A stretch of 64,000 nucleotides of DNA, taken from contig NZ_LMLE01000011.1 of the NCBI RefSeq assembly GCF_001422545.1, forward strand, positions 1 to 64,000, written 5' to 3'. Origin of the DNA: Pedobacter sp. Leaf41. Lineage in GTDB: Bacteria > Bacteroidota > Bacteroidia > Sphingobacteriales > Sphingobacteriaceae. The notes beneath the pieces are model-generated. The model was given only the letters and a program-made list of their open reading frames with translations, searched no databases and was not told the origin of the DNA. Below are positions 44,708-64,000 of the stretch, in pieces. The translations under genes and the position numbers were made by a program. How positions within the stretch are numbered: the stretch's first letter is position 1; every line of letters starts with the position of its first letter.

Positions 44708-44988
44708 ACATGAATTGATGAAACGCTAAAATTATATGAAGTATGCTGCTAAAAATTGGGTTAAATATTATCCTTTGATGTGATTATTCCAATTTTGTTT
44801 AATCTAAAATAATTGTATTCATTACATTTTATCCTCGCAAATTAAACTAATCCAATTTAATTATTTTTTTAAACTTTTAGATTAAAAAATTGATAATCAA
44901 TACTTAATAGGGATGCTTCTCGATTTTTTTTATTTTTTACATTGCAACGTGCTTTGTTAAATTAAATACATATTAACCATAACTACCC

Positions 44989-45486
44989 ATGAAAACCCAA
45001 ATATTGTACCTATTGCTAATTGTAGCAATGGCAATAAGCTCCTGTAAAAAAGATAAAGATGATGGATTAACTCCTGAAACGCAAACCGGTGCAAATACTT
45101 TTTCCTGTAAAATTAATGGAGGAATATTCATTCCTGTAAAAGAACTATTTGGACCAACACCTCTGTATTCTCAAATTGATGTTTATAACGGAATAAAGAC
45201 ACTTGGAATAAGTGCAAGTAATCCGAATACATACATAAAAAACATGCATTTTAATATTTACGATTTCAAAGGAGAAGGAGAGTATCGCGTTGATATAACT
45301 AAAGATACATATATAGATTGCTATATAAATGTACCATCTCCAAATCTAGAAAAATCAGAAAGCGGTATTATTCGAATCACAAAGTATCAAGGAAAAATTG
45401 TATCAGGAACATTTGAGTTTAATGTTAAGCATGAAGGGGCAAATATTGCAGTTAGCTCTGGCCGCTTTGATATTACATTACGCTAA
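44989..45486 (+). CDS. DUF6252-like lipoprotein
   Basis: 165 residues. Lipoprotein leader MKTQILYLLLIVAMAISS-C with the Cys at residue 19, then KKDKDDGLTPETQTGANTFSCKINGGIFIPV. The TFSCKINGxxFxP start, GEYRVD and the closing ISGTFEF-type strand (KIVSGTFEFNV) match the Bacteroidota DUF6252 domain, of unknown function. It is followed 55 bases later by the lipase-like gene; the two may be co-transcribed. Confidence 0.78.
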   Translation: MKTQILYLLLIVAMAISSCKKDKDDGLTPETQTGANTFSCKINGGIFIPVKELFGPTPLYSQIDVYNGIKTLGISASNPNTYIKNMHFNIYDFKGEGEYRVDITKDTYIDCYINVPSPNLEKSESGIIRITKYQGKIVSGTFEFNVKHEGANIAVSSGRFDITLR

Positions 45487-45540
45487 ATCTCAAAATTTGT
45501 AAACATCATTCATAAGCTTTCATTTAAAAAAACAACTATT

Positions 45541-48500
45541 ATGAAAAAAACATCTTTATTAATTCTCTCTTTTATTTTTTGTTTATTTAAAGCGAATGCT
45601 CAAGTTGATGAATTTAAGCATACTGCTGATAGTCTTTTCCAGCATTTAGACAAGACAGGAATAAGTACCGGTGTACTTTATGACAGGGTATTTCCTTATG
45701 CAGCGCTTAATAATTTCAATCTAATTACCCCTGATACGAGCTCTATGTGGCATTTCAAACAGGCATATAGCGAGTATTATCGATCTGCTTACAATCCATC
45801 GCCTTCCTGGTTGACTGTGAATCAATTAAAGGAAAAGGCTATAATGGCACAACTTTAGCAAAAAGTACCAATAGCTTTGGGCGACTTTCAGTTTAATGTA
45901 ATTGATACTAATTCAATAGAAATCGGCTTAATTAGCTTAAATCCCACCGACAGTTTATATTATGATGTTAACGGACGCTCTAGACATCCATTTAATATTA
46001 CAAACACTTTTGTAGGGGCTGCCTTGGTTGATAGTGTACTGATGGGATCAGTAGATTACAAATTTTCCCCAGAATTTATTTTTAATTACAGCAACAGAAC
46101 CTTGACCAATTTATCTGTAGATTTTGGCGATGGAAATGGTTTACAGAGTGTTAGCTTAAATAGTGATAAGTCGATTTATTATAGTACTACTGGCTATGTT
46201 CACTTAAAGTTTATCGCAACATTTTCTGATAATACAACAATAACGACATTTTCTTCTCTAAAAATTTTTGGAGAACAATCAAATCAAAACCAAATGCGAA
46301 ACTTGAATAGTTGTAATACCCCGACTACATTTGATATTTGGAGTAAACTTAGTTTTCAGGGTTATGATGAAAGTAATGCGACAAAAGGTAAGGGAGATGT
46401 TACCATTTATCATTCTAAAATAAATAATTGCGATGGGATTATTAGAAAGCCCATTATTATAATTGATGGTTTTGATCCAGGAGATGGGCAAAAAGGTTAT
46501 CAATTATATGATACTTATCTAAACAATCCTAATAAAGGATTACTAGGAGATAGTTTACGCAATCGAGGTTATGATTTATTTATTTTAAATTTTCCTACTT
46601 ATCAAATCAATGGACACAGCAGAGACGGCGGTGCAGATTACATTGAAAGGAATGCCCGAGTTTTAATGGCTTTGATAGATTCGGTAAATCTTATGAAACA
46701 AGGCAATGAGAAAATGGTAATCATCGGTCCAAGTATGGGTGGCTTAATTAGCCGCTATGCTTTAACTTATATGGAACAAAACAATATGTTACATAATACA
46801 AGGTTGTGGATCTCATTTGATTCGCCGCACCTTGGTGCTAATATACCAATAGGTGACCAATATTGGCTTGATTTTTACGGCGAAGCTACCCAGAATGAAA
46901 ATATTCTTGTGAACAGAGATAAAAAAATCGGCTCAACTGCTGCGAAGCAAATGCTTGTTTCACATTATTTGAATAATGGTAATCCTCATAGCTTCCGAAA
47001 TACATTTATGAATACCTTAAATGCGCTAGGATTTCCCAATGGCGATGCCAACCAACCATTTCGTAAAATATCGCTAATCGATGGAAGTTTAGGTGGAACT
47101 GAAATAAATATTGCAGGGGATAAGGCCTTTACTTTTGATGTTCACAGATGGCATGATATAGATTTGTGGCTTTTTAAAGTGCGTTATAAAACTTATACCG
47201 TAGCTTCGTCGAGAGTGTATTTTACAGGGAGTTATGGTACTAGTAATGTCGTTTTTGATGGTTGGTACAAATTCAAAAGTAGAATTAATTATTCAAATAC
47301 TGCTATTTATACTTCGGGGTTTGACGTAGCACCCGGGGGAATTTTTGATACCCAACAACAAATAGCAGAGAATGGAGATGGACAATTAATACATGCCTTG
47401 GGCAAACAGCCACATGGAGGCATTAGATTTAAAACTAGCTTTTATTCTGTGATACCAAACCATAGCTTCATCAACACTAAAAGTGCTTTAGCTTATAATG
47501 GCTCAAACCAAAACTTATCAGAAAACATTAGTGAACGGAGCTTGGTTTGTACTGGTGAAACACCATTTGATAGCTACTTTGGTGATTTTAATTCAAATAG
47601 AGAACATGTAGAACTTTGGTCTCCTGCTGTCGATTATATTTTAAAAGAGATAGACGCAATCCCACAGCTACCATTAATAAAATCGAATTTATCAATTAGT
47701 GGGCAAACATCTTTTTGTACAAGTGCATCTTATACAATACCAAACTTGCCATCAGGTACAATGGTAACTTGGACCGCTAATAATCCCAGTTACGTAATTT
47801 TATCAACTTCAGGAAGCCAAAATGAAACTGTACAAGTCACAAATGCAGTATTTAGCGCAGCGGTAATTTTAACTGCTGAAATCAAAACAAATTGTAGCAG
47901 AGTTGTTTTAACTAAACAAATAATTTTCGGTCCTCCGGTCGGAGGCTATATTACATTTTCTAATGCTGGCGCCCCAGCGGGCAATCCTGTAAGTTTACAG
48001 CCATGTGAGCGCAGTAATTCAGGAACATTTTATTTTACAGATAACTATGGTAATACTTTCAATTCATATGATAATCCTGGTTATGAATTTGAGATTATAT
48101 CTACTGTAAATTGTGATTTTTATCCTGATAGATATTTTGACTTTGCCTTTGATATTGCCCCATCATTTTCAGGTGGCACAGCTACCGTTGTAGTCAAAGT
48201 TAAGAATAATTGCGGGTGGAGCGATCCGTAAACTGTTGATTTGATCGTGCCAACATGTTACGGTGGTAATAGGTTTGCTGTTTATCCTAATCCAGCAAAT
48301 ACAGAAGTAAAAATTTCGTTCGACCAAGATCTGAACTCAAAGTCAGCAAATAAATCTATTGCCAGTACAAATTATTTTAGTGTAAAACTTTTCGATGATA
48401 AAGGTAAATTGATAAAAGGTGGGCAAAAGGGGGTAGATAGTAGCTCAGTTGTATTAGGGACATCCGATCTTCCAAATGGCACATACTTTCTTCATATTTT

Positions 48501-48546
48501 AAAAGATAAGGCAGTTATCAAAAAGCAGATTATTGTACAACATTAA
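45541..48546 (+). pseudogene. T9SS-exported alpha/beta-hydrolase (lipase-like) gene with two in-frame stop codons
   Basis: One uninterrupted frame of 1,001 codons broken only by TAG at 45856-45858 (QL-stop-QKVPIALG) and TAA at 48229-48231 (WSDP-stop-TVDLIV). Domains are a signal peptide (ending KANAQ), an N-terminal region, an alpha/beta-hydrolase core with the nucleophile elbow in VIIGPSMGGLISRYAL and IIIDGFDPGDGQKGY, a PKD-like region near 730-880, and a T9SS type A C-terminal signal (FAVYPNPANTEVKISF...LPNGTYFLHILKDKAVIKKQIIVQ). Coding quality is high on both sides of each stop, so decay is recent or the stops are read through. The second stop removes exactly the sorting signal. Confidence 0.82.
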
Positions 48547-48603
48547 TAAATTACGCCTCATGGAGATGGCAACTTTGCTATCTCCATTTAACTCAACTGC
48601 TTT

Positions 48604-49713
48604 ATGAACACATTTCAAAGTTACGTCTTAACGGTATTTTGCGGCTTTATTATTTCAACCGCAGATGCACAATTAATAGAACAACCAAATGTACCAACAT
48701 CTAAGCTAGCTGTACCATTTTTATTGCTTTCTACAGATGCCATATCATCAGGTATGGGCGAGTCTGGCTCTGCCTTGCTCTCGAGCAGCACTACGGCTGA
48801 ACTCAATACAGCAAAGGCAAACTTTTTGGTCGAAAAATTTGGAATGAACCTGACATATACGCCTTGGTTGAGGAAATTAGTAAGTGATAGAAAACTCATG
48901 TTTGTTGGCGGCTTTTATAAGGTTGCACCAGAATTTACATTAACAGCATCTCTAAATTACCTTTCTTACGGACAAACTGATTTAATAGATATTAATCAAA
49001 TTAGTTTGGGTACCATACAGCCAGTAGAATATGTGGGTACTTTAGGTATTTCAAAAAGTTTCGGATCAAAATTCTCTTTGGGAATGAAATTGAAGATTAT
49101 ACGTTCTAATCTTTACACCGGATCTGATTCTTTTGTTTTCATACAATCTGGTACTGCTTATGGCGTCGATCTATCATCTTATCACATTTTTCCCATCAAT
49201 TCATTTTCGGGCAATTCAACGATTGCCTTTGCTATAAACGTTGAAAATATTGGTCCCAAAATCTCATACTTTAACCAGTTTGACCAAAAATCATATTTAC
49301 CAACTAATCTAAAAATTGGCACAGCTTTTAAAACGATAACCTCTTCTGAAAGCGAAATTGGTATTGCTTTAGATTTTAATAAATTATTGGTGCCACAATA
49401 TCAGTTAAAATCTGATGAGAGTGTGTTTGAAAGTATTGTTTCATCATTTGATGGCAAAAGTGGCTCTAGCATTAGCGATGTAAGTGTCTCTATGGGTGCT
49501 GAATATATTTATAATAAAGCTGTTTCTTTTAGATTAGGTTATAATCTGCAAGGCGATAAACGATTATTGGGTAGCTTTTTTTCGGCTGGTGTGGGTGCAA
49601 CACTAAAAAAAGTTAGTTTAAACATGGCTTATATAACTGGCAATCCACAACGGTCATTTTTGAGCAATACGTTGAGATTCACTTTGGGTTATTCTTTCCC
49701 AAGCGCTCTGTAA
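48604..49713 (+). CDS. PorV/LptO-like outer-membrane protein (type IX secretion)
   Basis: 369 residues. Signal peptide (to ADAQ), then LAVPFLLLSTDAISSGMGESGSALLSSSTTAELNTAKANFL, the start typical of the PorV/PorQ barrel family (AVPFLxIxPDARxGGMGxAGxA). A 14-strand barrel-like sequence follows, ending with FTLGYSFPSAL. PorV accepts T9SS cargo after translocation. This copy lies directly downstream of a T9SS cargo gene (57-base gap), so it may be a dedicated partner rather than the housekeeping porV. Confidence 0.82.
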   Translation: MNTFQSYVLTVFCGFIISTADAQLIEQPNVPTSKLAVPFLLLSTDAISSGMGESGSALLSSSTTAELNTAKANFLVEKFGMNLTYTPWLRKLVSDRKLMFVGGFYKVAPEFTLTASLNYLSYGQTDLIDINQISLGTIQPVEYVGTLGISKSFGSKFSLGMKLKIIRSNLYTGSDSFVFIQSGTAYGVDLSSYHIFPINSFSGNSTIAFAINVENIGPKISYFNQFDQKSYLPTNLKIGTAFKTITSSESEIGIALDFNKLLVPQYQLKSDESVFESIVSSFDGKSGSSISDVSVSMGAEYIYNKAVSFRLGYNLQGDKRLLGSFFSAGVGATLKKVSLNMAYITGNPQRSFLSNTLRFTLGYSFPSAL

Positions 49714-49803
49714 CGCGAGGTAATCATCCGTTACGACATCAACAAAAGAAATTATTTATTAGGAAGTTATTCTCATGCGGCATAATTCTGATCTCGGAAA
49801 CGC

Positions 49804-49820
49804 TTCGTTTTTTGAGACAA
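49804..49820 (+). repeat. dispersed 17-base motif, copy 10
   Basis: TTCGTTTTTTGAGACAA, one change from the consensus, in the gap after the PorV-like gene. Confidence 0.6.
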
Positions 49821-50001
49821 GAATCAACAGAAAAATTCTCTTTGAACAATTTACCTTTGACGTCACCTCGCTGCGCTCGGTCCAGAATTCTACTTTGAAA
49901 TGGTCTGAATTTTGGGAAGTGCACAAATCTGCGAGTTAATAACACACCTACATGAAGACTTCATGGACACCTTGTAAGTTATACAGGACTTAATTTATAT
50001 C

Positions 50002-50184
50002 CTATTCTGATCGTTCGATATAAGGATGATCACCTTCCGCAGGAATATCATTCTGCTGTTCATGTAAGGATGTATTCAAAGAACTAATAATTTGATCCTT
50101 AAATCCTTCTAATTCGGCGTTTGATGATAAGAAATTGGCCAATTTTTGCAAAGCTTCTCTGCTTCCAGCGATTTGTATGTTCAT
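50002..50184 (-). CDS. small hypothetical protein, 60 residues
   Basis: Read from the ATG at 50184 (MNIQIAGSREALQKLANFLS); a longer frame starting at 50244 adds a basic leader without support. Polar, helical, acidic at the C-terminus (DIPAEGDHPYIERSE). The N-terminus resembles the short Bacteroidota proteins that start with an I-x-G-(S/T)-xx-x-L-xxLA pattern. Function unknown. Confidence 0.45.
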   Translation of the reverse strand: MNIQIAGSREALQKLANFLSSNAELEGFKDQIISSLNTSLHEQQNDIPAEGDHPYIERSE

Positions 50185-50590
50185 AAATTTAAAGTGACAA
50201 ATTTTACGCCAAACTAGGCGTATAATCCTAAATCTGTCATACATTATCTGATAATTAGTATCCTATAATCGATTTAGCTCATTGTATTTATTCTAATTAA
50301 TATAAGATTGAAATTTACAACAGTTATTATTTTGGATCAATAAATAAGATCTACGATTTGCTTATGGGAAAAATATTCATTTTTTTAGACGAAAAATATA
50401 ATTACAAACCCCTCAACCTATCAAAAATCGACCGTTATTTGGTAATTTCAGTTTTATGAAAGCCATCATAGTTATTAATGGTTCTTTTATTATTTATTCT
50501 ATAATTTAGGTAATATAAATTTTTGGTGGGTTAGGCATATATCAAGTACCTTTATATTTCTGAAGTTAACTTACTAATGTTACAAAAAAT
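50185..50590. other. gene-free stretch
   Basis: 406 bases between divergent small genes, very AT-rich. Nothing convincing seen. Confidence 0.4.
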
Positions 50591-51295
50591 ATGACCCAGA
50601 ATAGGAATATTTCATTTGATAAACTTTTCTATAAAGTTGCGACAAATCAATTTTCCCTCGAATATTTAGAAGAAGTACAATCTTTTTATCCTGAATATTT
50701 AGAAGATGATTCTGATGAGATTAAATTTAAGTGTGAAGATTTAATTAGTGCCATATATTTTATGAACGGCATGTCTGACAAATCGCTTGAGATAGACTTA
50801 GAACTGCTTAAAAGGTATCGGATTGAAAGGTGTGATACGTTACTTCTGAGGACAGCAAAGACAAGTGCAGAATTGAAACGGACAGATGATGTTTTCACTT
50901 ATATAGTTCGTTTCTTAAAAGACACACACAAAGATGACGATTGGTCAAGGAAACTTCCATTGCTAGCATGGTACGTTGAATTCTATTCAAAGGGAGAAGA
51001 TGGCACATTTAATAATTTTGAACAAACGTTAACGTCTATAACAAACAACTTAGGCATCAAAGCTATCGCAGCGATTTCCTTTTCGGATCGTGTTAGATTT
51101 ATATGGGAAGATTTTTTACGAGCTCAAAAAGAGTTACGCGCATTCCATTTGGCTTACTGGAAAGCTAAGAAAGAACAAAAAGATAAGCTGTTAGAAGAAT
51201 ACTTACGGACTGAAACAATCGCTTATTTTAAAACTGAAATCATAAATACCATTAAGATAAGCGAATCAATAAAAGCTAATAACGAGAGAACCTGA
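50591..51295 (+). CDS. hypothetical protein, 234 residues
   Basis: Soluble, helix-rich, acidic at first (SLEYLEEVQSFYPEYLEDDSDEIKFKCEDLISA) and basic near the end (AYWKAKKEQKDKLLEEYLRTETIAYFKTEIINTI). The spacing of helices (FMNGMSDKSLEIDLELLKRY, LLLRTAKTSAELKRTDDVFTYIVRFLKD) recalls TPR-like repeats, but no consensus is met. No family recognised. Alone on the plus strand in the accessory region. Confidence 0.6.
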   Translation: MTQNRNISFDKLFYKVATNQFSLEYLEEVQSFYPEYLEDDSDEIKFKCEDLISAIYFMNGMSDKSLEIDLELLKRYRIERCDTLLLRTAKTSAELKRTDDVFTYIVRFLKDTHKDDDWSRKLPLLAWYVEFYSKGEDGTFNNFEQTLTSITNNLGIKAIAAISFSDRVRFIWEDFLRAQKELRAFHLAYWKAKKEQKDKLLEEYLRTETIAYFKTEIINTIKISESIKANNERT

Positions 51296-51480
51296 TCATA
51301 AAACCCTGATTATTTAATAAGTTTCATGAGTTAGGACTTAAGAATATTATAGTTAGCAGAGTTGCCTACGATTATCCTGCTGTATTCCGCTTTTTTCCTA
51401 TATTATCATAAACTCATTTCATTAATCAAACTCAATTATTAGTTTTAGATAATGAGTAAATGATAAAATATAATAGCAAA

Positions 51481-51672
51481 TTAAATGTTAGTAAATGCAC
51501 TTGCCCACCATTCTCTTTTTTCATCCTGTTGAACGGTATAGGTTTTGGGAAGAGTTTTAATGAAATTTTGTGATATTAAGTCACCTAAATCCAATAGAAC
51601 AGCTAATAGAAACAAACAAATAACTACACAAACGAAGTATAGTAATTTCTGTTTTGGGGTTGGATTTGACAT
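51481..51672 (-). CDS. small single-helix membrane protein
   Basis: 63 residues with one helix at about 8-28 (LLYFVCVVICLFLLAVLLDL) and a polar tail with a Trp-Trp pair (KREWWASAF). Last gene of the leftward cluster, 25 bases after the zinc-ribbon membrane protein. Unknown function. Confidence 0.5.
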   Translation of the reverse strand: MSNPTPKQKLLYFVCVVICLFLLAVLLDLGDLISQNFIKTLPKTYTVQQDEKREWWASAFTNI

Positions 51673-51697
51673 ATTATGTTCTTAGAGTTTATTACTA

Positions 51698-51991
51698 CTA
51701 TAATTTTGACCATAACCAGCGGCTACCACATTGTTCGCATTTTGCGTATAGATTTTTGACAAAGAAAAAACGGTACCCATAATAAAGGCCGATTACAGCC
51801 ACAGCGCTACCGGAAATTAATAATAAAAGGTCCAATTTTTTAGTTAATGTCCAAGCACAAAAGAGCACCCATAGAGTAGCTAAAATGAATTTTGTTAGCC
51901 AACTCTTGCGAGAATCTACCTTTAGTGGAAATCCACTGCATTTGGGACAACGTTTATACACTTCCATCGTTAAATGTTTTATAGGCAACAA
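51698..51991 (-). CDS. zinc-ribbon membrane protein
   Basis: 97 residues with two CxxC pairs, CPKC near the N-terminus and CEQC near the C-terminus, flanking two hydrophobic helices (about 33-48 and 53-70). The four Cys could form one zinc ribbon on the cytoplasmic side. An internal ATG at 51967 (MEVYKRCPKC) is an alternative start and would remove the 13-base overlap with the upstream nuclease-like gene. Role unknown. Confidence 0.6.
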   Translation of the reverse strand: MLPIKHLTMEVYKRCPKCSGFPLKVDSRKSWLTKFILATLWVLFCAWTLTKKLDLLLLISGSAVAVIGLYYGYRFFFVKNLYAKCEQCGSRWLWSKL

Positions 51992-52389
51992 TTTTGATTT
52001 AGCTTATCCCAATTTCCAAGAAATTCATCATTATCTATGCTTGAAAGATCGACTATGCCTCTCGTTAAATATTGCTTGCATTTATTATATGTTTCTTCAC
52101 CGGTAGCAATATAAAAGTCGGGAGCAGTCATGAGGTCTCCATTTAGATTCACAAATATATAGTAGTGGTTAATGTTAATTCTGTCTTTCATTAATGGCCA
52201 TCCTGTATTCTTTTTTTTATAAATGGCTTTAACTTGAATGATAAATTGCTTGTCATTCTTTTCTGCAAGAATATCAATTGATTTAGCGTTACCCATAGTA
52301 ATGCCAACGCTAAATCCTCTTCTGAGAAGCTCTGCTGCAACAAAATATTCACCTGAAAGTCCTGTACTGTTTCTTTCTATTTCAGCCAC
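51979..52389 (-). CDS. PD-(D/E)XK-like nuclease-fold protein
   Basis: 136 residues. The layout is that of small restriction-endonuclease-fold proteins: an N-terminal helix with Glu (TGLSGEYFVAAELLRRGFSV), then a strand with Asp (GNAKSIDILAEKND), then the QVK strand (KQFIIQVKAIYKK), as in Holliday-junction resolvase- and VRR-like enzymes. Later blocks (HYYIFVNLNGDLMTAPDFYIATGEE) are like those of many uncharacterised bacterial members with this fold. It lies 12 bases after the HEPN-like gene, in one leftward cluster. It may act on DNA in defence or repair; this is unproven. Confidence 0.65.
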   Translation of the reverse strand: MAEIERNSTGLSGEYFVAAELLRRGFSVGITMGNAKSIDILAEKNDKQFIIQVKAIYKKKNTGWPLMKDRININHYYIFVNLNGDLMTAPDFYIATGEETYNKCKQYLTRGIVDLSSIDNDEFLGNWDKLNQNCCL

Positions 52390-52401
52390 GCTTTTTTTAT
52401 T

Positions 52402-53076
52402 TTATTGAGACATTGAATCTAATCTCTCATCTAGTTTTACTAAAACCTCAAACACGGTGCGGAAGTAATCCAAGGCTAGATCTTTTGAGAAACTTTCTTG
52501 ATATAGTTGTGAAAACGTTGGGGAAAGTGTTGTGATTTCTGTTTTTGTTCCGCCAGTAATCGCCTTCCCTTGCATTAATTGCTCTTTAATATCATTTATA
52601 TTAAACATGAATCCTACAAACTTGGCAGGAGCATCGGCAATTATTTTTTTGGTTCCCGCATGAGAATATGGATTTCTAACCTTATCTCGAAGATTATTAA
52701 GTGTCTGAGATTCCTCGTCTGTAATCAGCTTTTCTTTTTTTGCAAACAACAACGTATTAAATAGGATTTCTCCATCATATTTTTTGATTGCTTCTTCAGT
52801 CTTTTGGTTGTATAGATCTGGTTGTGAATAATTAATACCTAGAGTATGCTTTTTTATTAATACCAATTTAACTAGGCGCTCTAACAGATGGTTCGTAGAA
52901 AATATACTAGCCTGGTTAAGTTCTAAAATTAAGCATTTCAATATTTCATTTATCAACGATGTTAGTTCAATGAAGTGCGAGTGTTTAGTTTCAAAATATA
53001 CGCTAATGGAGTTATAGTTTTTATCAATGGAATTTAAAAATTCCACTTTAAGTTTTTCGTTTAGAGAGACGCTCAT
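52402..53076 (-). CDS. HEPN-like protein with RX4H motif
   Basis: 224 residues, all-helical. The block LNNLRDKVRNPYSHAG holds R134-N-P-Y-S-H139, the RX4-6H active-site pattern of HEPN ribonucleases, preceded by long helices as usual for the fold. Other parts (VEFLNSIDKNYNSISVYFETKHSHFIELTSLINEIL) match no family I know. HEPN proteins cut RNA in toxin-antitoxin and phage-defence systems. The adjacent small proteins (157 and 136 residues) could be partners. The assignment rests on one motif and predicted helices. Confidence 0.55.
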   Translation of the reverse strand: MSVSLNEKLKVEFLNSIDKNYNSISVYFETKHSHFIELTSLINEILKCLILELNQASIFSTNHLLERLVKLVLIKKHTLGINYSQPDLYNQKTEEAIKKYDGEILFNTLLFAKKEKLITDEESQTLNNLRDKVRNPYSHAGTKKIIADAPAKFVGFMFNINDIKEQLMQGKAITGGTKTEITTLSPTFSQLYQESFSKDLALDYFRTVFEVLVKLDERLDSMSQ

Positions 53077-53079
53077 GTA

Positions 53080-53553
53080 CTATTTTAAATTTAAATCCTT
53101 GTATAGCAATTCAATTAATTTTTCTGTTTCATGACCTAATTTTTGATATACTTCAGAGTAATCTGCACTATCGTTTTTATCCGCTGCCAATCTTAACTCT
53201 AAATTACACGCCATACCCATTTGGCTTAAGAGTTGTTCAATTTTATTTCTATTGCTTTTAGAAAGGAATATGATATTGGCATCAACTACCTCAACAATTT
53301 CCCTAAGGTGCGCTAAAGTACTTCCGGAATATGCATAAGGAGAGAAATCCATCCCCCTGTATTCAGCAACCTTTCCAAAACATGATGATTTAAACTTGGT
53401 TAACTTACTAGATATTTCGGTAAAAGCCGGAATTTTACTTGCATATAATAGATCAAATTTTTTGCTTTTAATTGCAAAGAAATATGTTAATAATCCAACA
53501 GTACTAGCCGCTGCTATAGGTATAAGGAGAGTTGTAATTTGTAGTAAAGTCAT
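53080..53553 (-). CDS. hypothetical membrane-anchored protein, 157 residues
   Basis: One N-terminal helix (about 4-28, LQITTLLIPIAAASTVGLLTYFF) and a helical cytoplasmic part (KIPAFTEISSKLTKFKSSCFGKVAEYRG, LREIVEVVDANIIFLSKSNRNKIEQLLSQM). Proteins of this shape are common in accessory islands; no named family. It ends 3 bases before the HEPN-like gene starts, so the two are surely co-transcribed. Confidence 0.6.
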   Translation of the reverse strand: MTLLQITTLLIPIAAASTVGLLTYFFAIKSKKFDLLYASKIPAFTEISSKLTKFKSSCFGKVAEYRGMDFSPYAYSGSTLAHLREIVEVVDANIIFLSKSNRNKIEQLLSQMGMACNLELRLAADKNDSADYSEVYQKLGHETEKLIELLYKDLNLK

Positions 53554-53577
53554 ATTAAATTTTCAGAGTGATGAAAT

Positions 53578-54226
53578 TTAGATTTGTGGACTAAAAGAAT
53601 CCCTCTTGCAAGCTTTTATAAAGTTCCAACCGAAATCAGTTAAAAAGAAATCTTCTGAAGCAACTTGTTCTATTGACCATTGTGGGTTAGTAACGTGTGG
53701 ATCATTGCTAGGGTATTGAGAGTAGGCCGCTATTTCTCCAATGATGCCCAATCTTATTAAATTTGACATATCTTCTCCTAGTAAATCCGTTGGATATGTT
53801 TCGCCACTCATTCTCATCTCAACACTACCACCTCGTTCTTCAAATGTATTTAATATCTTTATCTCATCTGAAGATAATTGCGAAAGAATGTTGGGATAAA
53901 CAGTAGTTGTTAGGGTTACATTTACATAAATAATTAGTAAATAGATTTGCCCACATATTTTGTAACGATTCATCTTCTTCTAAGGAAACATTTTCCAAAT
54001 ACGGAAATAGCACTTTTAAATTCACATTTCTTAATTTAAGCCCTTCATCTTGTACAATTTGTTGCACCTTTTTTAGATTCCTTATTTGGTTTTTAAGACG
54101 TCTAGGCTTCAAATTATCTGAAATAATACCTCCCCACTCCTCAGCTGCAGGTCCAATTAACTTTGTTAAAATTCCGTTAGCGGTTTTGGCGGTTTCCACT
54201 AAACTCTCTGATTCAATTGGCGTCAT
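53578..54226 (-). pseudogene. DUF4393-like protein, frameshifted
   Basis: Two overlapping leftward frames form one protein. From 54226: ESLVETAKTANGILTKLIGPAAEEWGGIISDNLKPRRLKN...NVSLEEDESLQNMWANLFTNYL, typical of the N-terminal half of DUF4393. The match continues in the other frame as VNVTLTTTVYPNILSQLSSDEIKILNTFEERGG to the stop at 53578. The switch lies near 53925-53935 (ATTTATGTAAATG), where one base seems to be missing. In intact members WANLLxxxxxP...V(H/Y)PxFxxxLxxLSxDExxIL is continuous. DUF4393 proteins appear in mobile and defence islands; function unknown. Confidence 0.7.
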
Positions 54227-54291
54227 ATTATAATTTTAAATAAGAATTAAGTGTTAATCTATGATAGATACTCAAAATAATGGATAGTTTA

Positions 54292-54894
54292 TTATTTCTT
54301 CTGAAGTTTTTTTATTTCCTCGTTCGTGTGGGTATCTAGAATTTTAGCATAGCGATAAAACGTTGCTCTTGTTAATTGAAGCCCTTTATAAATTTGCTCC
54401 GGTGTTTTGTCCATGTCCTTATAAACCGAACGCATAACCAATAATTTAGAAATAGTATCTTTGGTAAGTCCTTTTGGCCTTCCTCCGGTACGACCTCTTG
54501 CACGAGCAGATTGTAAACCAGCGTTAGTTCTTTCTCTGATTAATTCCCTTTCATATTCAGCTAATGAAGCCATTATATTTAAAAATAGCCTGCCATTAAT
54601 CGTTGCTGTATCAACCCCATCGGTTAACCCTTTGATTATTATACCTTGATCGCTTAGATTCAAGACTAAATCAATAATATGTTTCAAACTTCTTCCTATT
54701 CGGTCCAATTTCCAAACAACTAATTCATCACCTTTTCGGAACTGTGCAATCATCTTATCGAGTTCCGGGCGAACCTTTGTTGCTCCAGAAATTGTTTCTT
54801 TGAAAATGATCTCACATCCCGCCTTTTCAAGCGCTTCGATTTGCAAATTTAAATTTTGTTCTTTCGTAGAAACCCTGGCATATCCGATCTTCAT
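54292..54894 (-). CDS. serine recombinase, resolvase/invertase type
   Basis: 200 residues of the small serine recombinase family: catalytic domain MKIGYARVSTKEQNLNLQ with Ser9, FKETISGATKVRPELDKM, VVWKLDRIGRSLKHIIDL, GLTDGVDTATINGRLFLNIMASLAEYERELIRERTNAGL. A C-terminal helix-turn-helix (about 140-185) follows GRTGGRPKGLTKD. These proteins resolve cointegrates or invert DNA at nearby crossover sites. The gap to the right (54895-55681) contains strong palindromes, which may be relevant. It could belong to the same island as the large recombinase. Confidence 0.92.
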   Translation of the reverse strand: MKIGYARVSTKEQNLNLQIEALEKAGCEIIFKETISGATKVRPELDKMIAQFRKGDELVVWKLDRIGRSLKHIIDLVLNLSDQGIIIKGLTDGVDTATINGRLFLNIMASLAEYERELIRERTNAGLQSARARGRTGGRPKGLTKDTISKLLVMRSVYKDMDKTPEQIYKGLQLTRATFYRYAKILDTHTNEEIKKLQKK

Positions 54895-54934
54895 TATTGT
54901 ATCATTAAAACGTTATTAAGTAAATTTAATAAAC

Positions 54935-54951
54935 TTTGTTTTGTGATACAA
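54935..54951 (+). repeat. dispersed 17-base motif, copy 11
   Basis: TTTGTTTTGTGATACAA, two changes from the consensus; it lies about 40 bases before the small resolvase start. Confidence 0.5.
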
Positions 54952-55118
54952 GTTTTTGGGAAACTAGTCTTGATAGAATCGATTAGTTATATACATTTCT
55001 TTAGAATCTCATAATACCACCGTTTTTAATGCTATAAACCACATTTGAAACAAACTTAATCAGTATTATTACTGACCACATGTCACTTAAAGAAATCCTT
55101 TAACCACTCTGGTGTTTT

Positions 55119-55185
55119 GCAAGATGTATTTTTGTATACACAAAAAATCTTGCGCCCTTGAGGTCGGGTATTTCCTCGGAAATAC
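55119..55185. other. two adjacent hairpins
   Basis: GCAAGAT and ATCTTGC, extended inward by TTTTTG and CAAAAA with a 3-nt bulge, form a 13-bp stem (55119-55153). Fifteen bases later GTATTTCC-TC-GGAAATAC (55168-55185) is a perfect palindrome. Between them is CCCTTGAGGTCGGG. No T-run follows either. Confidence 0.5.
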
Positions 55186-55681
55186 TTAAAACACTAATAG
55201 ATCATCCAAAAATTCTGCAATATCTAATTGGTAATGTATTCTAAAAAACAATAATCTAGGGTATACTAAATGGAAGACGTTTTTGTACACAACGAATATG
55301 CGAGATTTATATCGATAAGTAAGATATCCCTAATGCAGAGCAAAGAAAGCTAAAAATAAAAATGCTTTTTTTACCCTATAACTATAAGGGTAGTAGTAAA
55401 AACCTTTTCAAAGTCGGAACTTATCTAAGTTTCGAGCAAAATTAGAATGGCCAGCGCTCATCTGTGGATTGTGGACCCCACCATAGCGTAATGCTAATTT
55501 GCTTCTACCGATTAATTTTGATTTCAAAAAAATATCCGAATCACTATTGTGAAAGAAAAGGTATAAATCCAAATTGCATTATTCCAAAGCAGTAAATATG
55601 GCAAAAAAAAACACGTGATCCCGAACGTAATATACAAATGTTCATTTGACGTGTAATTAATTTTAGGTTTATCCACAGCTT

Positions 55682-55837
55682 ATGAGACATCTTCCGATAG
55701 ACCGAATGACCCCTGAGAAATTAATGGAAATGTTAAAGAAAAAAGGAGTAAAAATGTCTATAAATCAAGCGAAGGAAATCTTGGATTTGCTATATATTTT
55801 AGCTATTTTGGAAGTAGAGCAAGTTTTAAAAAGATGA
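55682..55837 (+). CDS. 51-residue protein coupled to the large serine recombinase
   Basis: MRHLPIDRMTPEKLMEMLKK and a helical remainder ending LLYILAILEVEQVLKR. Two or three amphipathic helices, possibly a small helix-turn-helix (TPEKLMEMLKKKGVKMSINQAKEIL). Its TGA overlaps the recombinase ATG (ATGA), which argues for coupled expression. I recall similar short proteins with a C-terminal LxxLxxIAxEQxLK pattern before integrases in Bacteroidota. It may be an accessory or directionality factor; no direct evidence. Confidence 0.65.
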   Translation: MRHLPIDRMTPEKLMEMLKKKGVKMSINQAKEILDLLYILAILEVEQVLKR

Positions 55838-57387
55838 TTACAGCAGATTTATATATAAGAGTAAGTACTGATGAACAGGCTGATAAGGGATATTCCCAGC
55901 GCAACCAAGAAGAGGTTTTACAGAAATATTGTTTCGCCAGAGATATCAAAGTGAGGAAAGTTGTTTTTGAGGATCATTCCGCCAAAAGCTTTATACGCCC
56001 TGCCTGGCAAAAATTATTGGCTGATCTAAAAAAGAAAAGAGGACAAACGGATTTGGTACTTTTCACCAAGTGGGACAGATTCAGTAGAAATGCGGGGGAT
56101 GCCTATCAGATGATAAAAATATTGGGTGATCTCGGTATAGAGCCGCAGGCCATTGAGCAGCCTCTTGATATCTCCATCCCTGAAAACAAAATGATGTTGG
56201 CTTTCTATCTCGCAGCTCCCGAAGTTGAGAATGATAGAAGAGCGCTCAATACTTTTCACGGAATGAGAAGAGCAAGGAAAGAAGGGCGATGGATGGGGCC
56301 GGCGCCCATAGGCTATACTAACAAGGTAACCGAAGACGGGCGAAAGTATATTTGTCCTGTAGAGCCACAAGCGTCAATAATGAAGTGGGTATATGACGAA
56401 TTATCTACGGGTAAGTGGTTCATTGATCAGATCTGGAAGGCAGCATCGGATAAAGGGCTGAAGACAGGTAGAAAAAATTTTTGGCAGATAATTAGAAATC
56501 CTATTTACTGCGGTAGGATACCCATTGCGAAATATAAGGACGAGGAAGCCCATACAGTTATAGGGCAACATAAAGCGATAGTTTCGGAAAGCATCTTTTA
56601 TAAAGCTATGGATGTTTTGAACGGCAGAAACAAACCAAAAAAGACTACTATATCTTCTCCTGATGCGCTTCCCTTGCGTGGCTTTCTGATATGTCCAAAG
56701 TGCGGCTACATGCTCTCAGGTAGTGCTTCAAAAGGTTACAGCAAGCACTATCACTATTACCATTGCTTTTCTAAATGTGGGGTGAGATATAATGCGGACA
56801 AAGTCAATAAGCTTTTCGTGGAGGAGTTAAAAAAATACACTATAGATCCACTGTTGCATGAGGCCTATGTTATGATTTTGAAGCAGGTTTATCAAGCTTT
56901 TGCAAGTGAAGATAATAATGAATTATCAAATGTAAAAAAACAGTTAGAGGAGTTTAATAATAGAATTTCGAAGGCTAGGGACAAGATGCTCAACGATGTA
57001 ATTCTTGATTTTGAGTACAGGAAAATAAAATCAGACTGTGAAAGAAATATCCTTGTTCTTGAAAATAGACTCATCGATTTATCCAGGGGAAAAGAGAATA
57101 TTGGTGAACTAATCGGAAAAGCGACTGGGTTGCTCAAAAACCTACATGAAACATATATAGAGGCAGATTCTGAAGGAAAAAGGCGATTAATTAGTTCGAT
57201 CTATCCCCAAAAACTCACTTTTGACGGAACACAACATCGAACTGTTCGAATGAATGAGGCTGTCCGCGTTCTAGGCACTTTAAAGGCCGTTTTTGAGGGC
57301 AAAAAAAAGGGGCAAACCAAACAAAAATTTGATTTGCCCACTATGGTAGCGGGGAGCAGGATCGAACTGCCGACCTCAGGGTTATGA
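55834..57387 (+). CDS. large serine recombinase (integrase) ending inside tRNA-Met
   Basis: 517 residues. Resolvase domain ADLYIRVSTDEQADKGYSQRNQEE with Ser11 and KWDRFSRNAGDAYQMI; recombinase domain with PAPIGYTNK and NFWQIIRNPIYCG; zinc beta-ribbon (CPKCGYML ... CFSKCG at about 287-315); C-terminal coiled-coil (about 365-440). The last ~15 codons (VAGSRIELPTSGL) are read from the antisense of the tRNA-Met 3' half, showing that the gene abuts an attachment site at the tRNA 3' end. The integrated element would therefore extend to the left. I did not find a second copy of the tRNA end in the window. Confidence 0.93.
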   Translation: MITADLYIRVSTDEQADKGYSQRNQEEVLQKYCFARDIKVRKVVFEDHSAKSFIRPAWQKLLADLKKKRGQTDLVLFTKWDRFSRNAGDAYQMIKILGDLGIEPQAIEQPLDISIPENKMMLAFYLAAPEVENDRRALNTFHGMRRARKEGRWMGPAPIGYTNKVTEDGRKYICPVEPQASIMKWVYDELSTGKWFIDQIWKAASDKGLKTGRKNFWQIIRNPIYCGRIPIAKYKDEEAHTVIGQHKAIVSESIFYKAMDVLNGRNKPKKTTISSPDALPLRGFLICPKCGYMLSGSASKGYSKHYHYYHCFSKCGVRYNADKVNKLFVEELKKYTIDPLLHEAYVMILKQVYQAFASEDNNELSNVKKQLEEFNNRISKARDKMLNDVILDFEYRKIKSDCERNILVLENRLIDLSRGKENIGELIGKATGLLKNLHETYIEADSEGKRRLISSIYPQKLTFDGTQHRTVRMNEAVRVLGTLKAVFEGKKKGQTKQKFDLPTMVAGSRIELPTSGL

Positions 57388-57420
57388 ATCCTGCGCTCTA
57401 ACCATCTGAGCTACCCCGCC
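57344..57420 (-). tRNA. tRNA-Met (CAT anticodon), CCA encoded
   Basis: Leftward cloverleaf: acceptor GGCGGGG/CCCCGCT (G1-T72 wobble), D-arm GCTC...GAGC, anticodon stem CAGGA/CCCTG with loop TTCATAA, variable AGGTC, T-arm GGCAG-TTCGATC-CTGCT, discriminator A and encoded CCA. The base pair 31-39 is A-C, a mismatch that a standard CAGGG/CCCTG stem would not have. Elongator Met fits better than initiator because the GGG/CCC anticodon stem and C1-A72 mismatch of initiators are missing; a tRNA-Ile with modified CAT cannot be excluded. The 3' end overlaps the recombinase gene. Confidence 0.92.
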
Positions 57421-57997
57421 GGATAAAAATATTTGCTTATATTGTCAAATATTTAGGTGGTTATTTTTTGGAGTTGCAAATATAGAATAAATTACCTTTC
57501 TTTAGAAAAATAAAATAAAAAAAATACGTCCGGATATATTCTGCAACCGCTGTTATTTACTGATTAAATTATTTAATTAATTGTTTTTATTACTGGGTTA
57601 ACTGTATTTCATATTGATAGTTTATATGAGCTAAATCATATCATATATGCTTGTTTTTGGCATTTACTGTCTCATCTGTGTCTCATGCAGAATTAATCTT
57701 TTTAAGCTTACGCATCATATATAACAGATATAGAATCACAATCATATCAATGATGATCCAAATACTTCTAACAAAAAGGGATTTTCCAAATTAGCTGAAA
57801 TTTTAGTGCTGCTCCAAGATATAAGAGTGTAAAATTTGAGTTTCGACAATATATTAAAGTTGCCTGTAAGCTAATACAACAAAGCCTACAGTAACTAATG
57901 TCATGTTTAATATATAAACTCCATAGGGAAGCTTAAATACGCAGAGTATTAGGATTAGAATCAAAAGGAATTTAAGAACCTTATCTGTTTGGATATC
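57421..57997. other. 577-base gene-free stretch right of tRNA-Met
   Basis: AT-rich, without a credible gene. It holds the right copy of the 19-base repeat (57667-57685). Confidence 0.5.
57667..57685 (+). repeat. 19-base repeat, right copy
   Basis: CTGTCTCATCTGTGTCTCA; see the left copy at 12297-12315. Confidence 0.5.
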
Positions 57998-58315
57998 CTA
58001 ATCTATCAAAACAATTGGTATAGCTTCAAGGGATTTAAAATCACATTTAGGGCATGGAATCTTACTATCTTTACTAATCATGGATGAATTTAAAATTTTA
58101 AATCCAGTTTTTCTAGAAAACCATCTTCCTGTTTCACCCTTTTTATTACACATTGGACAAGTCTTATTTGTAGTTACAGTTAATATTTTACGGTTTTTGC
58201 AGCTAGCTAATTCATTATTAGGCTGTTTGCTGTAAAATGCCATCTTAGATAATCCAACGGTTAGTTGTATTTTATAGTTACAGTGAGAACAAGAGAAGTT
58301 ATACTTAGTTGCCAT
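57998..58315 (-). CDS. multi-zinc-ribbon protein, 105 residues
   Basis: Three CxxC pairs and a single extra Cys: CSHC (about 9-12), CPMC (about 55-58) and CPKC (near 86), with basic spacers. The pairs could form one or two zinc ribbons. No catalytic domain and no membrane helix. Function unknown; possibly a nucleic-acid-binding or structural protein of the accessory region. Confidence 0.55.
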   Translation of the reverse strand: MATKYNFSCSHCNYKIQLTVGLSKMAFYSKQPNNELASCKNRKILTVTTNKTCPMCNKKGETGRWFSRKTGFKILNSSMISKDSKIPCPKCDFKSLEAIPIVLID

Positions 58316-58477
58316 CTGTAGGCTTTCTTATTTTTAGCCACTCTATTAGCTCATTTTTGCGCTTGAAACTTATAATATCAAGTACTAAACAAAGTGATAT
58401 AGTATGACTATTAGTGATAAAATATACCCTACAAATTCAAATCCTAACTTAATGAGACTCATGATTTTAGTTTCAGG

Positions 58478-58828
58478 TTAAAGGCTAGAAAAAAAATAGT
58501 ATACAGGAAGTGCTAAAATTGCGATAACGAATAAGGGAGCATATTCATCATTTATCCATCTTTTAGTTTTTAAAAACTTGTCGCTGTAATAAATTATGAT
58601 CCATCCAATTAACGTCAATGATGCCCAAATTGCTAACGATTTCCAAGCTTGGTTTAAATAGCTACTTGCTGTCGTACCATATTGAGTTAGTATAGTTTGG
58701 TCAGGATTTGCCTTCTGAAGGGAGGAATATTTTAAAACTAACTTCAGTTCATTAAAGGTTAAGAATATGCCAAATGCAATTATAATTAAACCTAATAGCG
58801 TTAAAAAATAGGATAATGTTTTTTTCAT
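58478..58828 (-). CDS. small membrane protein, 116 residues
   Basis: Hydrophobic segments at about 6-26 (YFLTLLGLIIIAFGIFLTF), 62-82 (SLAIWASLTLIGWIIIYYS) and 98-114 (LFVIAILALPVYYFFSS), with a soluble stretch after the first. No family recognised. It diverges from the XRE regulator gene, with palindromes between the two, so it may be under that regulator's control. Confidence 0.55.
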   Translation of the reverse strand: MKKTLSYFLTLLGLIIIAFGIFLTFNELKLVLKYSSLQKANPDQTILTQYGTTASSYLNQAWKSLAIWASLTLIGWIIIYYSDKFLKTKRWINDEYAPLFVIAILALPVYYFFSSL

Positions 58829-58854
58829 TTTTGATTAATTTAGATTTATAAAAA

Positions 58855-58872
58855 TATGTGATTTGTCACATA
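58855..58872. promoter_or_regulatory. palindromic operator candidate
   Basis: TATGTGA-TTTG-TCACATA: perfect 7-base arms in the gap between the divergent membrane-protein and XRE genes. A natural binding site for a dimeric regulator. Confidence 0.5.
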
Positions 58873-58892
58873 GATACAAAAGTATAAGAAAA

Positions 58893-58909
58893 CCACCTTT
58901 GATTGGTGG
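58893..58909. promoter_or_regulatory. second inverted repeat at the XRE start
   Basis: CCACC-TTTGATT-GGTGG spans the probable TTG/GTG start codons of the XRE gene. It could be an operator or an mRNA hairpin limiting translation. Confidence 0.4.
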
Positions 58910-59130
58910 CAAAAATTAGAGATCAGGAATACATTAAATCATTTGGGGCTAATCTGAGAAAGATTAGAAAATCCAAAGATATGTCCATGACTGAACTTGC
59001 TAATATTTGTGGTATAGAATACCGTCAAGTGGCAGATATTGAATTGGGCAAAATAAATACCACTATATCAACAGTTAAAGCTCTTGCTCTTGCCTTAAAT
59101 TTAAAGCCAAGAGATCTTTTTGAATTTTAA
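58903..59130 (+). CDS. XRE family transcriptional regulator
   Basis: 75 residues, a single helix-turn-helix domain: FGANLRKIRKSKDMSMTELANICGIEYRQVADIELGKINTTISTVKALALALNLKPRDLFEF. Start is TTG at 58903 or GTG at 58906 (no ATG fits). It is of the size of phage or restriction-system controller (C-protein-like) regulators. It is convergent with the OLD-like gene (18 bases between stops) and divergent from the membrane-protein gene; two inverted repeats lie upstream, suggesting self-control. Confidence 0.85.
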   Translation: MVAKIRDQEYIKSFGANLRKIRKSKDMSMTELANICGIEYRQVADIELGKINTTISTVKALALALNLKPRDLFEF

Positions 59131-59148
59131 TTTCTGGGAGAGAAAAGA

Positions 59149-60837
59149 TTATATATTAAGAATGTATGTCTTTACAAAGCACCTTATTTCTTCCAAATCT
59201 GGGCTTAAAATAAGATCTTTTTCAAGAACACTATTGACCCATTTTGGCCCATGATTACCTACGCTTTTGTCAAAAGACTCAATTTCTCCAATTTGAATTA
59301 TTATTATTCCGACTTTTTCAAGGTGAAGATTAAGTTTTTTAAAAGCAACAGTAGCATCACCGGCTGTCAAGATTGCCTTACCTGCGCTCTTTGCTTTTGT
59401 CCATGCTGAAGATTTTTTAAGAATTTGTTGTAATTCCTTTATTTGCTTATCAGATAAGTTAGGTTCTGAGGCTTCATCAAAAACATTTTCTAATGCTTTT
59501 TTAGCATCGACTGTATTTAATTCTGGTCTTTGGTTATCAATGTCTTGTTTAACAATTTTGAATTCTTTTTGGATGTCAGCCCAATTGCCTCCCATAATTT
59601 CATACATCTCTTTTAATGGCTGCTCATTGTTATAAAGATCAAAGTCAGCTATTATTGTCAATGGTACGTCAATTTGCTTTAAAGCATTCATAACGGTGGG
59701 AAATCTAGCTTTTCCACCTGCTTGAATATAATGTATATCTGGAGATGGCATAACTTCATGTTCAACGATTGCGGTTGCAAGAGCTGATAAAAGACGGCAA
59801 TCAGAATCACTTTCACACAGAACGACTTTAGAATGAAACAAACCATCAAGTACATTAGAGTGCCGCAGTATTGAATCTTTCCAAATGATTTTTAAGTCAT
59901 TGTTGTTAAGAGTCGAATATTCAACAACATTATTCTCTCGTTTTAATCTAATGATAGTTAATCTGTCTCCTGCATAATCTAAAATCCCCTTAAGAAAATG
60001 CTCGCTATGTGTTGCTATTAATATTTGCTTGTTCTCGTGTACATTTTTGGAAATCATCTGACCTAATAACTTGGCTTGAGGTGGATGCAAAAATGCCTCT
60101 GGCTCATCTATTAAATTGATACCATAGTTTTCTGCAATTAAAGAAAGAAAGACCCCTGCAAAGCTTTTCATTCCATCTCCTTGTACTTGTAATTGTGGAA
60201 GTTCCTTTAAATTTTTTAAATAACTTGAAGACACTCTATCATCTCCCTCTTTTATAATTGGCTTTTTACCTACATGCATTGGCACATTCCCACCTGCACC
60301 AAAATTCAAAGTTATGTCGATATCAAAGGCGGTTTTGAAATATCTTGTGAAGTCCGCAAGAAGATCACCATTCATCTGTAACGTATGAAAGGGATGAACT
60401 GGCGGCTGAGACAAAAGATCAATGCTACTTGGTGGAGAAACAAGATTTAATCTATCGCTAGTGTGCAAAATATTCACATTAAATTGGCTAAGAATACCAG
60501 AATCATTATTATCCCATGCTCTTTTAAGTCCATCATCTTGGAATGGACTCTGAGCTTTACTGAAGTACGACCCGTTTATTAAACGGTGTTCAATATTTTC
60601 TTTGAAGTCTTCCACGGATCCAGAAGTTTTCGTTGCAATTGAGGCTATTGCTACATTTTTTAATGTATTATTCTTCAAAAGTGCTGTATATAGCTCTTTT
60701 AAGGTTACACTTTTGCCAGAGTTGTTAGCTCCAACAAAGAGAACTATTGAGTTTTCTTCTAAAATAAGTTTATAACCATTTTTGAATGTTATTTCTTTCA
60801 GAGAGATTGATCCTATCATATGAGAGTGTTTTTTCAA
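59149..60837 (-). CDS. OLD-family-like ATPase with TOPRIM-type C-terminus
   Basis: 562 residues. ABC-type ATPase half: Walker A GANNSGKS at 36-43, the Q-loop/signature region near GDGMKSFAGVFLSLIAENYG, Walker B INLIDEPEAFLHPPQAKLLG and a switch His in LIATHSEHF. The C-terminal half begins VVLCESDSDCRLLSALATA (TOPRIM Glu) and has TIIADFDLYNN (TOPRIM DxD). This is the architecture of OLD endonucleases, several of which act in phage defence, alone or with a UvrD-like partner (as in Gabija). No helicase gene is adjacent; here it ends an operon of mobile-element genes. It may be defence cargo or part of the element's DNA metabolism. Confidence 0.85.
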   Translation of the reverse strand: MKKHSHMIGSISLKEITFKNGYKLILEENSIVLFVGANNSGKSVTLKELYTALLKNNTLKNVAIASIATKTSGSVEDFKENIEHRLINGSYFSKAQSPFQDDGLKRAWDNNDSGILSQFNVNILHTSDRLNLVSPPSSIDLLSQPPVHPFHTLQMNGDLLADFTRYFKTAFDIDITLNFGAGGNVPMHVGKKPIIKEGDDRVSSSYLKNLKELPQLQVQGDGMKSFAGVFLSLIAENYGINLIDEPEAFLHPPQAKLLGQMISKNVHENKQILIATHSEHFLKGILDYAGDRLTIIRLKRENNVVEYSTLNNNDLKIIWKDSILRHSNVLDGLFHSKVVLCESDSDCRLLSALATAIVEHEVMPSPDIHYIQAGGKARFPTVMNALKQIDVPLTIIADFDLYNNEQPLKEMYEIMGGNWADIQKEFKIVKQDIDNQRPELNTVDAKKALENVFDEASEPNLSDKQIKELQQILKKSSAWTKAKSAGKAILTAGDATVAFKKLNLHLEKVGIIIIQIGEIESFDKSVGNHGPKWVNSVLEKDLILSPDLEEIRCFVKTYILNI

Positions 60838-60855
60838 ATATATAAAAGTTAAGTC

Positions 60856-61125
60856 TTATTTTCCCAAAATCACAAAAGAGCTATATTCATAGTATGTTCC
60901 ATTAATCTTGTAATAGATTTTTTCATCATTTCCTGAGGCAATTGCAGTGACTGCTGAAATTTTCCTCATACCATCAGATACTGGAAAGGGACAATAGAGC
61001 CTTTTAATTTTTCCGTTTTTATTTACAACCAATAGGTTTTTTTCATTTTCATATCTATAAAAATTTAAATTATCCATAAAATAATATGTTATAAATAGCC
61101 CATCATAAGCTGACAGGCTACCCAT
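60856..61125 (-). CDS. hypothetical protein, 73-89 residues
   Basis: The ATG at 61125 overlaps the DUF3871 stop (TAATG); a second ATG at 61077 (MDNLNFYRYENEKNLLVVNK) is an equally likely start. Beta-rich with Tyr and Lys (KIKRLYCPFPVSDGMRKISAVTAIA, KIYYKINGTYYEYSSFVIL). No family recognised. The tight position between DUF3871 and the OLD-like gene supports it. Confidence 0.55.
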   Translation of the reverse strand: MGSLSAYDGLFITYYFMDNLNFYRYENEKNLLVVNKNGKIKRLYCPFPVSDGMRKISAVTAIASGNDEKIYYKINGTYYEYSSFVILGK

Positions 61126-62949: not shown

Positions 62950-62970
62950 TTGTTTAAAATTTAGTCCATA

Positions 62971-63006
62971 AAAAAAGGACTACAGTTGTGTACCATAGTC
63001 CTTTTT
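62971..63006. terminator. bidirectional terminator
   Basis: AAAAAGGACTA...TAGTCCTTTTT, an 11-bp perfect stem with A- and T-runs, between the 108-residue gene and the Sak4-like gene. It ends leftward transcription of the former. Confidence 0.8.
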
Positions 63007-63038
63007 GATTTGAATGTTTCTAATGTGTTTTTCAGTAG

Positions 63039-63365: not shown

Positions 63366-63507
63366 GATAAATTTTCTTTAGGTGAATAAATAATTTGAAT
63401 TAGGAAGATGCAAGGGGGGACAAGCACTCTCTAAATTATGTGGGGGGAGTGTTCCGAGCCAGGCCATGAAATATCTGCTCAGAAAAAAAAACAAAAATTT
63501 TAAAAAA

Positions 63508-63605: not shown

Positions 63606-63609
63606 TAAG

Positions 63610-63969: not shown

Positions 63970-64000
63970 ATTGGATGAAGTCTTATTAATGCCAATTATA

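Follow-up and report, generated by a model that had tools for sequence, protein, structure and literature searches.

The P2/P4 hotspots and the core hotspots of Pseudomonas are reportedly places where defence genes gather, either at fixed sites or on mobile elements. The locus described here lies in a window of 64,000 nucleotides (nt), the whole stretch of DNA that was analysed (positions 1 to 64,000 of contig NZ_LMLE01000011.1 of Pedobacter sp. Leaf41), and consists of a row of small genes at 51481-54226 close to a large serine recombinase gene which ends in a tRNA-Met gene. With the hotspots named above it shares one conserved site and recombinase combined with a variable defence cargo. It differs from them in that its recombinase is a large serine one, placed at tRNA-Met of Pedobacter-type genomes; in addition, its left end was not located here, and three of seven recombinase loci are without recognised defence genes. 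Two genes of the row can be compared with described families. Proteins of the HEPN superfamily are characterized by an Rx4-6H motif, a polar residue (N, D or H) after the R and a second acidic residue in an upstream Ex3[KR] motif (PMC3710099). DUF4393 corresponds to Abi-alpha, an abortive-infection determinant which consists of a single gene, is encoded by an Enterococcus prophage and causes early lysis (PMC6356687).

The row is probably not one six-gene machine but a mosaic: defence or conflict genes which were acquired independently and form the cargo of the large serine recombinase inserting at tRNA-Met. This reading is based on six other genomes of the genus, in which the same recombinase overlaps the tRNA in the same way but has other genes next to it; moreover, the cluster genes were not found together elsewhere and a plasmid-type resolvase heads the row. 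Conspicuous as it is, the row most likely represents a mixed load of cargo, in which each gene would act alone. The site belongs to a known type of defence-cargo site, and the row contains a HEPN family which is unnamed in the libraries searched. Literature searches on the cluster or the site found no paper on either.

Gene exchange beside the recombinase at tRNA-Met

The recombinase gene 55834-57387 extends with its last 44 nt into the tRNA-Met gene. Among 143 other genomes of the genus, seven (G138, G647, G590, G472, G578, G756 and G542) encode this recombinase with 97-99% identity, and in six of these seven loci tRNA-Met overlaps the recombinase end (ARAGORN); no tRNA was found in the G542 stretch, which lies at a contig end. 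On its right, the tRNA is followed in the six genomes with the overlap by the same two genes, which we take to be START-domain-like and LptF-like. DNA identity to the window stops at about 54850-55100 in six loci and at 55817 in G542. Neighbouring genes have been exchanged at the tRNA-Met site, which carries swappable, partly defence-related cargo. In a PADLOC scan of 30 chosen proteins over the seven recombinase loci, a type I restriction-modification system was recognised in G138 (locus L067), a Dnd/Pbe system in G647 (L068), a retron-type reverse transcriptase with a HamB-like helicase in G472 (L070) and DRT UG39 together with RTasVirE-PriCT2 in G542 (L073). Defence systems are located beside the recombinase in four of the seven loci, and the tRNA overlap was seen in three of these four. 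The site swaps genes including defence systems in Pedobacter-type genomes and could be searched for further systems.

Several observations weigh against interpreting the row as independently acquired cargo of this element. The ten cargo proteins scanned in G590, G578 and G756 gave no convincing defence match, the sole matches being to AAA models (mad3 with E 1.4e-30 and weaker ones) and given by an exporter-type ATPase; because these three of the seven loci hold no recognised defence genes, the site is not restricted to defence. A left attachment repeat was not found in the window, where the longest other match to the tRNA stretch comprises 12 nt, so that the cluster is assigned to the element by adjacency. 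Furthermore, the tight spacing of the row (3-25 nt) would fit a functional operon as well, and the structure model of the HEPN-like protein is poor, with a predicted local distance difference test score (pLDDT) of 53.5.

In G472, the 3' part of tRNA-Met recurs almost exactly (44 nt, 97.7%) about 14.4 kb to the left of the tRNA (L070, 2226-2269), and this copy probably represents the element's left attachment site in that genome. Among ten loci checked, only this one holds such a copy.

To the right of tRNA-Met the contig (C11) carries an extra stretch of about 13.8 kb at 57543-71331, which continues past the end of the window and separates the tRNA from the presumed START-domain-like gene. This gene directly follows the tRNA in the six close relatives and matches here only from residue 8. 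The extra stretch encodes an OLD-like nuclease (59149-60837), a putAbiC protein (65691-66581), a pair of an AriA/AriB-like (PARIS-type) AAA ATPase and a DUF4435 protein (67608-69887) and a phage-type integrase (69893-71020).

Arrangement of the row and its plasmid-type resolvase

The features of the row and its surroundings are as follows.

51481..51672, minus strand: protein of 63 amino acids with one strongly hydrophobic segment (residues 11-29; Kyte-Doolittle scan); no convincing family match
51698..51991, minus strand: small membrane protein of 97 amino acids (89 from the ATG at 51967), CxxC pairs near both ends, zinc-ribbon-like (Kyte-Doolittle scan, relatives)
51979..52389, minus strand: stand-alone PD-(D/E)XK-fold protein of 136 amino acids (structure model and motif)
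52402..53076, minus strand: HEPN-superfamily protein by motif, 224 amino acids (E66, K70; R134-N135-x3-H139)
53080..53553, minus strand: protein of 157 amino acids, N-terminal hydrophobic segment and polar remainder (Kyte-Doolittle scan)
53578..53973, minus strand: C-terminal piece of a frameshifted Abi_alpha gene (DUF4393, PF14337), 131 amino acids (profile match)
53864..54226, minus strand: N-terminal piece of the frameshifted Abi_alpha gene in another frame, 120 amino acids (profile match)
54292..54894, minus strand: small serine recombinase of the resolvase/invertase type, 200 amino acids (domain match)
54895..55028, minus strand: possible res site of 134 nt, upstream of the resolvase (conservation in plasmids)
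55834..57387, plus strand: large serine recombinase, 517 amino acids, with Resolvase, Recombinase and zinc beta-ribbon domains (domain matches)
57344..57420, minus strand: tRNA-Met (CAT), putative integration site judged by overlap and recurrence (detected at Rfam cut-offs)

The sequence-only reading had described a compact leftward cluster of six genes next to two recombinases. The row is indeed present, with all open reading frames on the minus strand and short spacing, and both recombinases, 54292-54894 (minus) and 55834-57387 (plus), adjoin it; the DUF4393-like gene, however, is split by a frameshift, so that the row holds Abi_alpha in two pieces and five further genes. Leftward from the resolvase, Abi_alpha follows after 65 nt. 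The second Abi_alpha piece is separated by 24 nt from 53080-53553, which is followed after 3 nt by the HEPN gene and after a further 12 nt by 51979-52389. The next gene, 51698-51991, overlaps 51979-52389 by 13 nt if its TTG start is used and is separated from it by 11 nt with the ATG at 51967; the last gap, to 51481-51672, is 25 nt. Convergent with the cluster, an open reading frame for 234 amino acids on the plus strand (50591-51295), without a convincing family match, may or may not be part of the element. At Rfam cut-offs the tRNA alone was detected as structured RNA in 44000-64000, and promoter and terminator scans yielded results at chance level.

Proteins with 67-80% identity to the resolvase are encoded on five Bacteroidota plasmids; the underlying search of plasmid records gave 2,797 matches at E<=1e-40, nearly all of them under 60% identity. 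The genes following the resolvase vary on these five plasmids and include an Mrr-like endonuclease, a small hypothetical protein with a RelE/ParE toxin, a Fic protein, a galactosyltransferase-related protein and an oppositely directed VOC gene. On a Chryseobacterium plasmid, the 80% identical resolvase adjoins a relative of the HEPN gene, and the four other plasmids carry other genes there. The resolvase and what follows it probably came from a plasmid. The 134 nt at 54895-55028 are conserved together with the resolvase gene in two Chryseobacterium plasmids (about 74% identity) and represent a possible res site. In G578, two adjoining pieces of 75% identity (L071, 12513-12778) correspond to the two ends of the resolvase gene of the window and are probably the remnant of a related resolvase beside the same recombinase. 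An invertible promoter served by the small recombinase was also considered, based on a match to Mpi invertase below cut-off. This idea found no support: the six inverted-repeat pairs in 53700-55900 (12-23 nt, 75-92%) have comparable counterparts around two other resolvases.

Occurrence of the cluster genes in other genomes

Close relatives of the HEPN protein were identified in P. psychrodurus (79% identity, locus L006), in P. jeongneungensis (55%, L007), in genome G447 (55%, L025) and on the Chryseobacterium plasmid (51%, L037). Matches were obtained in 15 of 399 genomes of the family and in five of 395 genomes of the phylum, each count including the present genome; the two draws overlap, as both hold this genome and some others. 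For the comparison, these four close loci and eleven distant ones (L026-L036), of 12.8-18 kb each, were searched with tblastn (E<=0.01), leaving out five weaker HEPN matches (G202, G442, G627, G663 and G667). None of the other five cluster genes had a match in any of these 15 loci. A resolvase was found at two of the close loci, L006 (56%) and L037 (80%), and a third showed a partial match of 30%. The genes adjoining HEPN vary from one distant locus to another; of the four close loci, L007 and L025 have the same neighbours, and otherwise these vary, too.

The loci of the remaining genes give the same picture. Relatives of 53080-53553 (two genomes) and of 51698-51991 (three genomes) are not accompanied by other cluster genes, and none was found in the flanking DNA examined of the 55 viral contigs which encode a relative of 51979-52389. 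Around Abi_alpha in ten other genomes of the genus no other cluster gene was found within about 1.5 kb, save for a match of 14 residues with E 0.09. The sequence-only reading had suggested one undescribed defence system of several genes. Its six co-directional genes with short gaps, and the combination of a nuclease fold, a HEPN motif and membrane proteins, speak for such a system; the other cluster genes were, however, found neither in any of the 15 HEPN loci nor together at the loci of the other genes, and one member is frameshifted. The proposal falls on the lack of co-conservation that the sequence-only reading itself had named as refuting it. As its members are not kept together across genomes, we rejected a single multi-gene system, which appears very improbable. 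The defence character which the same reading had seen in the cluster is right or at least likely.

A smaller unit, in which the membrane-anchored protein 53080-53553 senses or restrains the HEPN ribonuclease 52402-53076 and the rest is unrelated cargo, is regarded as unlikely. The two genes are 3 nt apart. Immediately upstream of the 79% identical HEPN relative in L006 lies a gene for a protein with an N-terminal hydrophobic stretch and a polar, coiled-coil-like region (read by eye, no family match). Both relatives of 53080-53553 in 144 other genomes of the genus are located in conflict-gene settings: one adjoins three open reading frames with AbiTii matches (PF18864; L047, 5471-8816) and the other lies near a GHKL-type ATPase and a nucleotidyltransferase/HepT-like pair (L046). 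Neither of the two, however, has a relative of this HEPN gene beside it, and the protein upstream of HEPN varies among the close loci, with 253 amino acids including the hydrophobic stretch in L006, 304 in both L007 and L025 and 221 in L037. Such a unit would be compatible with an independent acquisition of the other genes, and the probabilities of the two readings overlap. Further-reaching and doubtful is the idea of an undescribed family of infection-triggered ribonucleases, founded by the HEPN protein, whose upstream partners are interchangeable (here and in L006, a helical protein anchored in the membrane); gene shuffling on elements with plasmid resolvases and at tRNA-Met would then connect one toxin with different sensors.

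Some of the HEPN loci display further features. On the plasmid of Chryseobacterium shandongense, the HEPN relative is directly preceded by a gene (L037, 8206-8871) for 221 amino acids with an R-N-x3-H stretch (RNKFTH), so that two HEPN-like genes may stand side by side there behind an Mrr-like endonuclease. One distant HEPN relative adjoins an AbiTii gene (L027) and another lies near a large serine recombinase (L034).

The proteins encoded in the row

The HEPN-like protein had been recognised in the sequence-only reading by its RX4H motif, and this assignment is supported by all three published hallmarks. In an alignment of 16 proteins with 21-79% identity to the window protein, the Rx4-6H motif (R134 to H139, here RNPYSH in residues 134-139) and the upstream Ex3[KR] (E66 and K/R70) are kept in all 16, and the residue after the R is N in 15 and D in one; E66, R134, S138 and H139 are invariant. 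In these features it resembles the RNase-type members of the superfamily (DUF4145-like, Abi-associated; PMC3710099), but the window protein itself matches none of the families. It was filed, by motif, as a member of the HEPN superfamily with the fold unconfirmed. There was no convincing match in Pfam, NCBIfam or PADLOC-DB; judged by these searches, the family is without a name in the three libraries and is worth having. Single weak matches were given by one member each of the 16, to DUF4145 (E 1.2e-4), HEPN pEK499_p136 (0.0041) and CARF-HEPN Csx20 (3.7e-5). The AlphaFold2 model, calculated from three sequences, is mostly helical; as it is poor, the fold search was uninformative, with a best Foldseek E of 0.55, none of 98 matches at E<=0.001 and weak ones including MtlR and HepT-type toxin entries. 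A search for solved structures with the alignment found none, and no relatives were found in phage records or viral contigs. Set off during infection or when the element is lost, the protein would most likely act as a metal-independent ribonuclease, cleaving RNA and arresting growth.

The likeness of 51979-52389 to PD-(D/E)XK nucleases, likewise proposed from the sequence, is supported by the fold of its model (pLDDT 85.6) and by an E-D-QxK pattern: E14, D39, Q52 and K54 are invariant in 19 of 19 aligned proteins, comprising 18 relatives from viral contigs and the window protein. Fold and pattern are shared with the homing endonuclease I-Ssp6803I (Z score 14.6, 122 aligned residues, root-mean-square deviation 2.4), with archaeal Hjc (11.9, 111 aligned, 2.5) and with SPARDA nuclease domains (Z scores 13.0 and 12.2). 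I-Ssp6803I is presumably of the PDDEXK_5 type. The window's stand-alone protein differs from these in that it scores below the cut-off of PDDEXK_5 (PF11645; E 4.4e-4, 20.7 against 26.1 bits), and it was for this reason not filed in that family; in addition, general scans revealed no Argonaute-like partner, as in the short-Argonaute system SPARDA, among the neighbouring open reading frames of the window. PADLOC PDC-S01 is matched over residues 9-62 with E 9e-6, and solved structures are matched by sequence with E 0.1 at best. Most likely the protein would cut DNA. No match was found in 144 other genomes of the genus. Plasmid records contain four weak relatives, and phage records seven from one Bacillus phage group. 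The apparent absence from viral contigs, where a single-protein query had found none, was overturned by the scan with the alignment, which detected relatives in 55.

The DUF4393-like gene belongs to the family named in the sequence-only reading but has no intact reading frame. Both pieces score above the PF14337 cut-off of 29 bits: 53864-54226 matches profile positions 11-59 (E 3.6e-7, 30.8 bits) and 53578-53973 positions 71-196 (E 6.7e-10, 39.7 bits). The two open reading frames are in different frames and overlap by 110 nt. Both matches relate the gene to EF2833 of Enterococcus faecalis, which is one gene of 272 residues (PMC6356687) and not frameshifted like that of the window. PF14337 was matched in 11 of 144 genomes of the genus including this one, and all ten others are without an internal stop; the C-terminal piece was not found in plasmid records. 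The frameshift may be a real mutation or an assembly error. Because of it, the gene is probably dead here, and Abi_alpha would be out of action.

This split also bears on the idea that the whole row consists of decaying leftovers of a former island without present function. The failure to find a left attachment repeat and the lack of a convincing family match for the two smallest genes (51481-51672 and 51698-51991) point in the same direction. The HEPN gene, however, has an open frame in which every hallmark residue is retained, and its differences from the L006 relative are mainly silent (non-synonymous divergence dN 0.13, synonymous divergence dS about 2.0, saturated). The recombinase, too, is open over its full length and 97-99% identical to copies elsewhere. 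General decay is quite unlikely, and cargo genes acquired independently of each other, with Abi_alpha as a probable loss, remain the preferred reading.

The membrane proteins noted in the sequence-only reading were recovered by a Kyte-Doolittle scan, which gave one hydrophobic segment each in 51481-51672 and 53080-53553 and two in 51698-51991, the latter combined with the CxxC pairs. For 53080-53553, no relatives were found in plasmid records or viral contigs. Three relatives of 51698-51991 were detected in 144 other genomes of the genus, and two of them are located in loci with phage-type genes as read.

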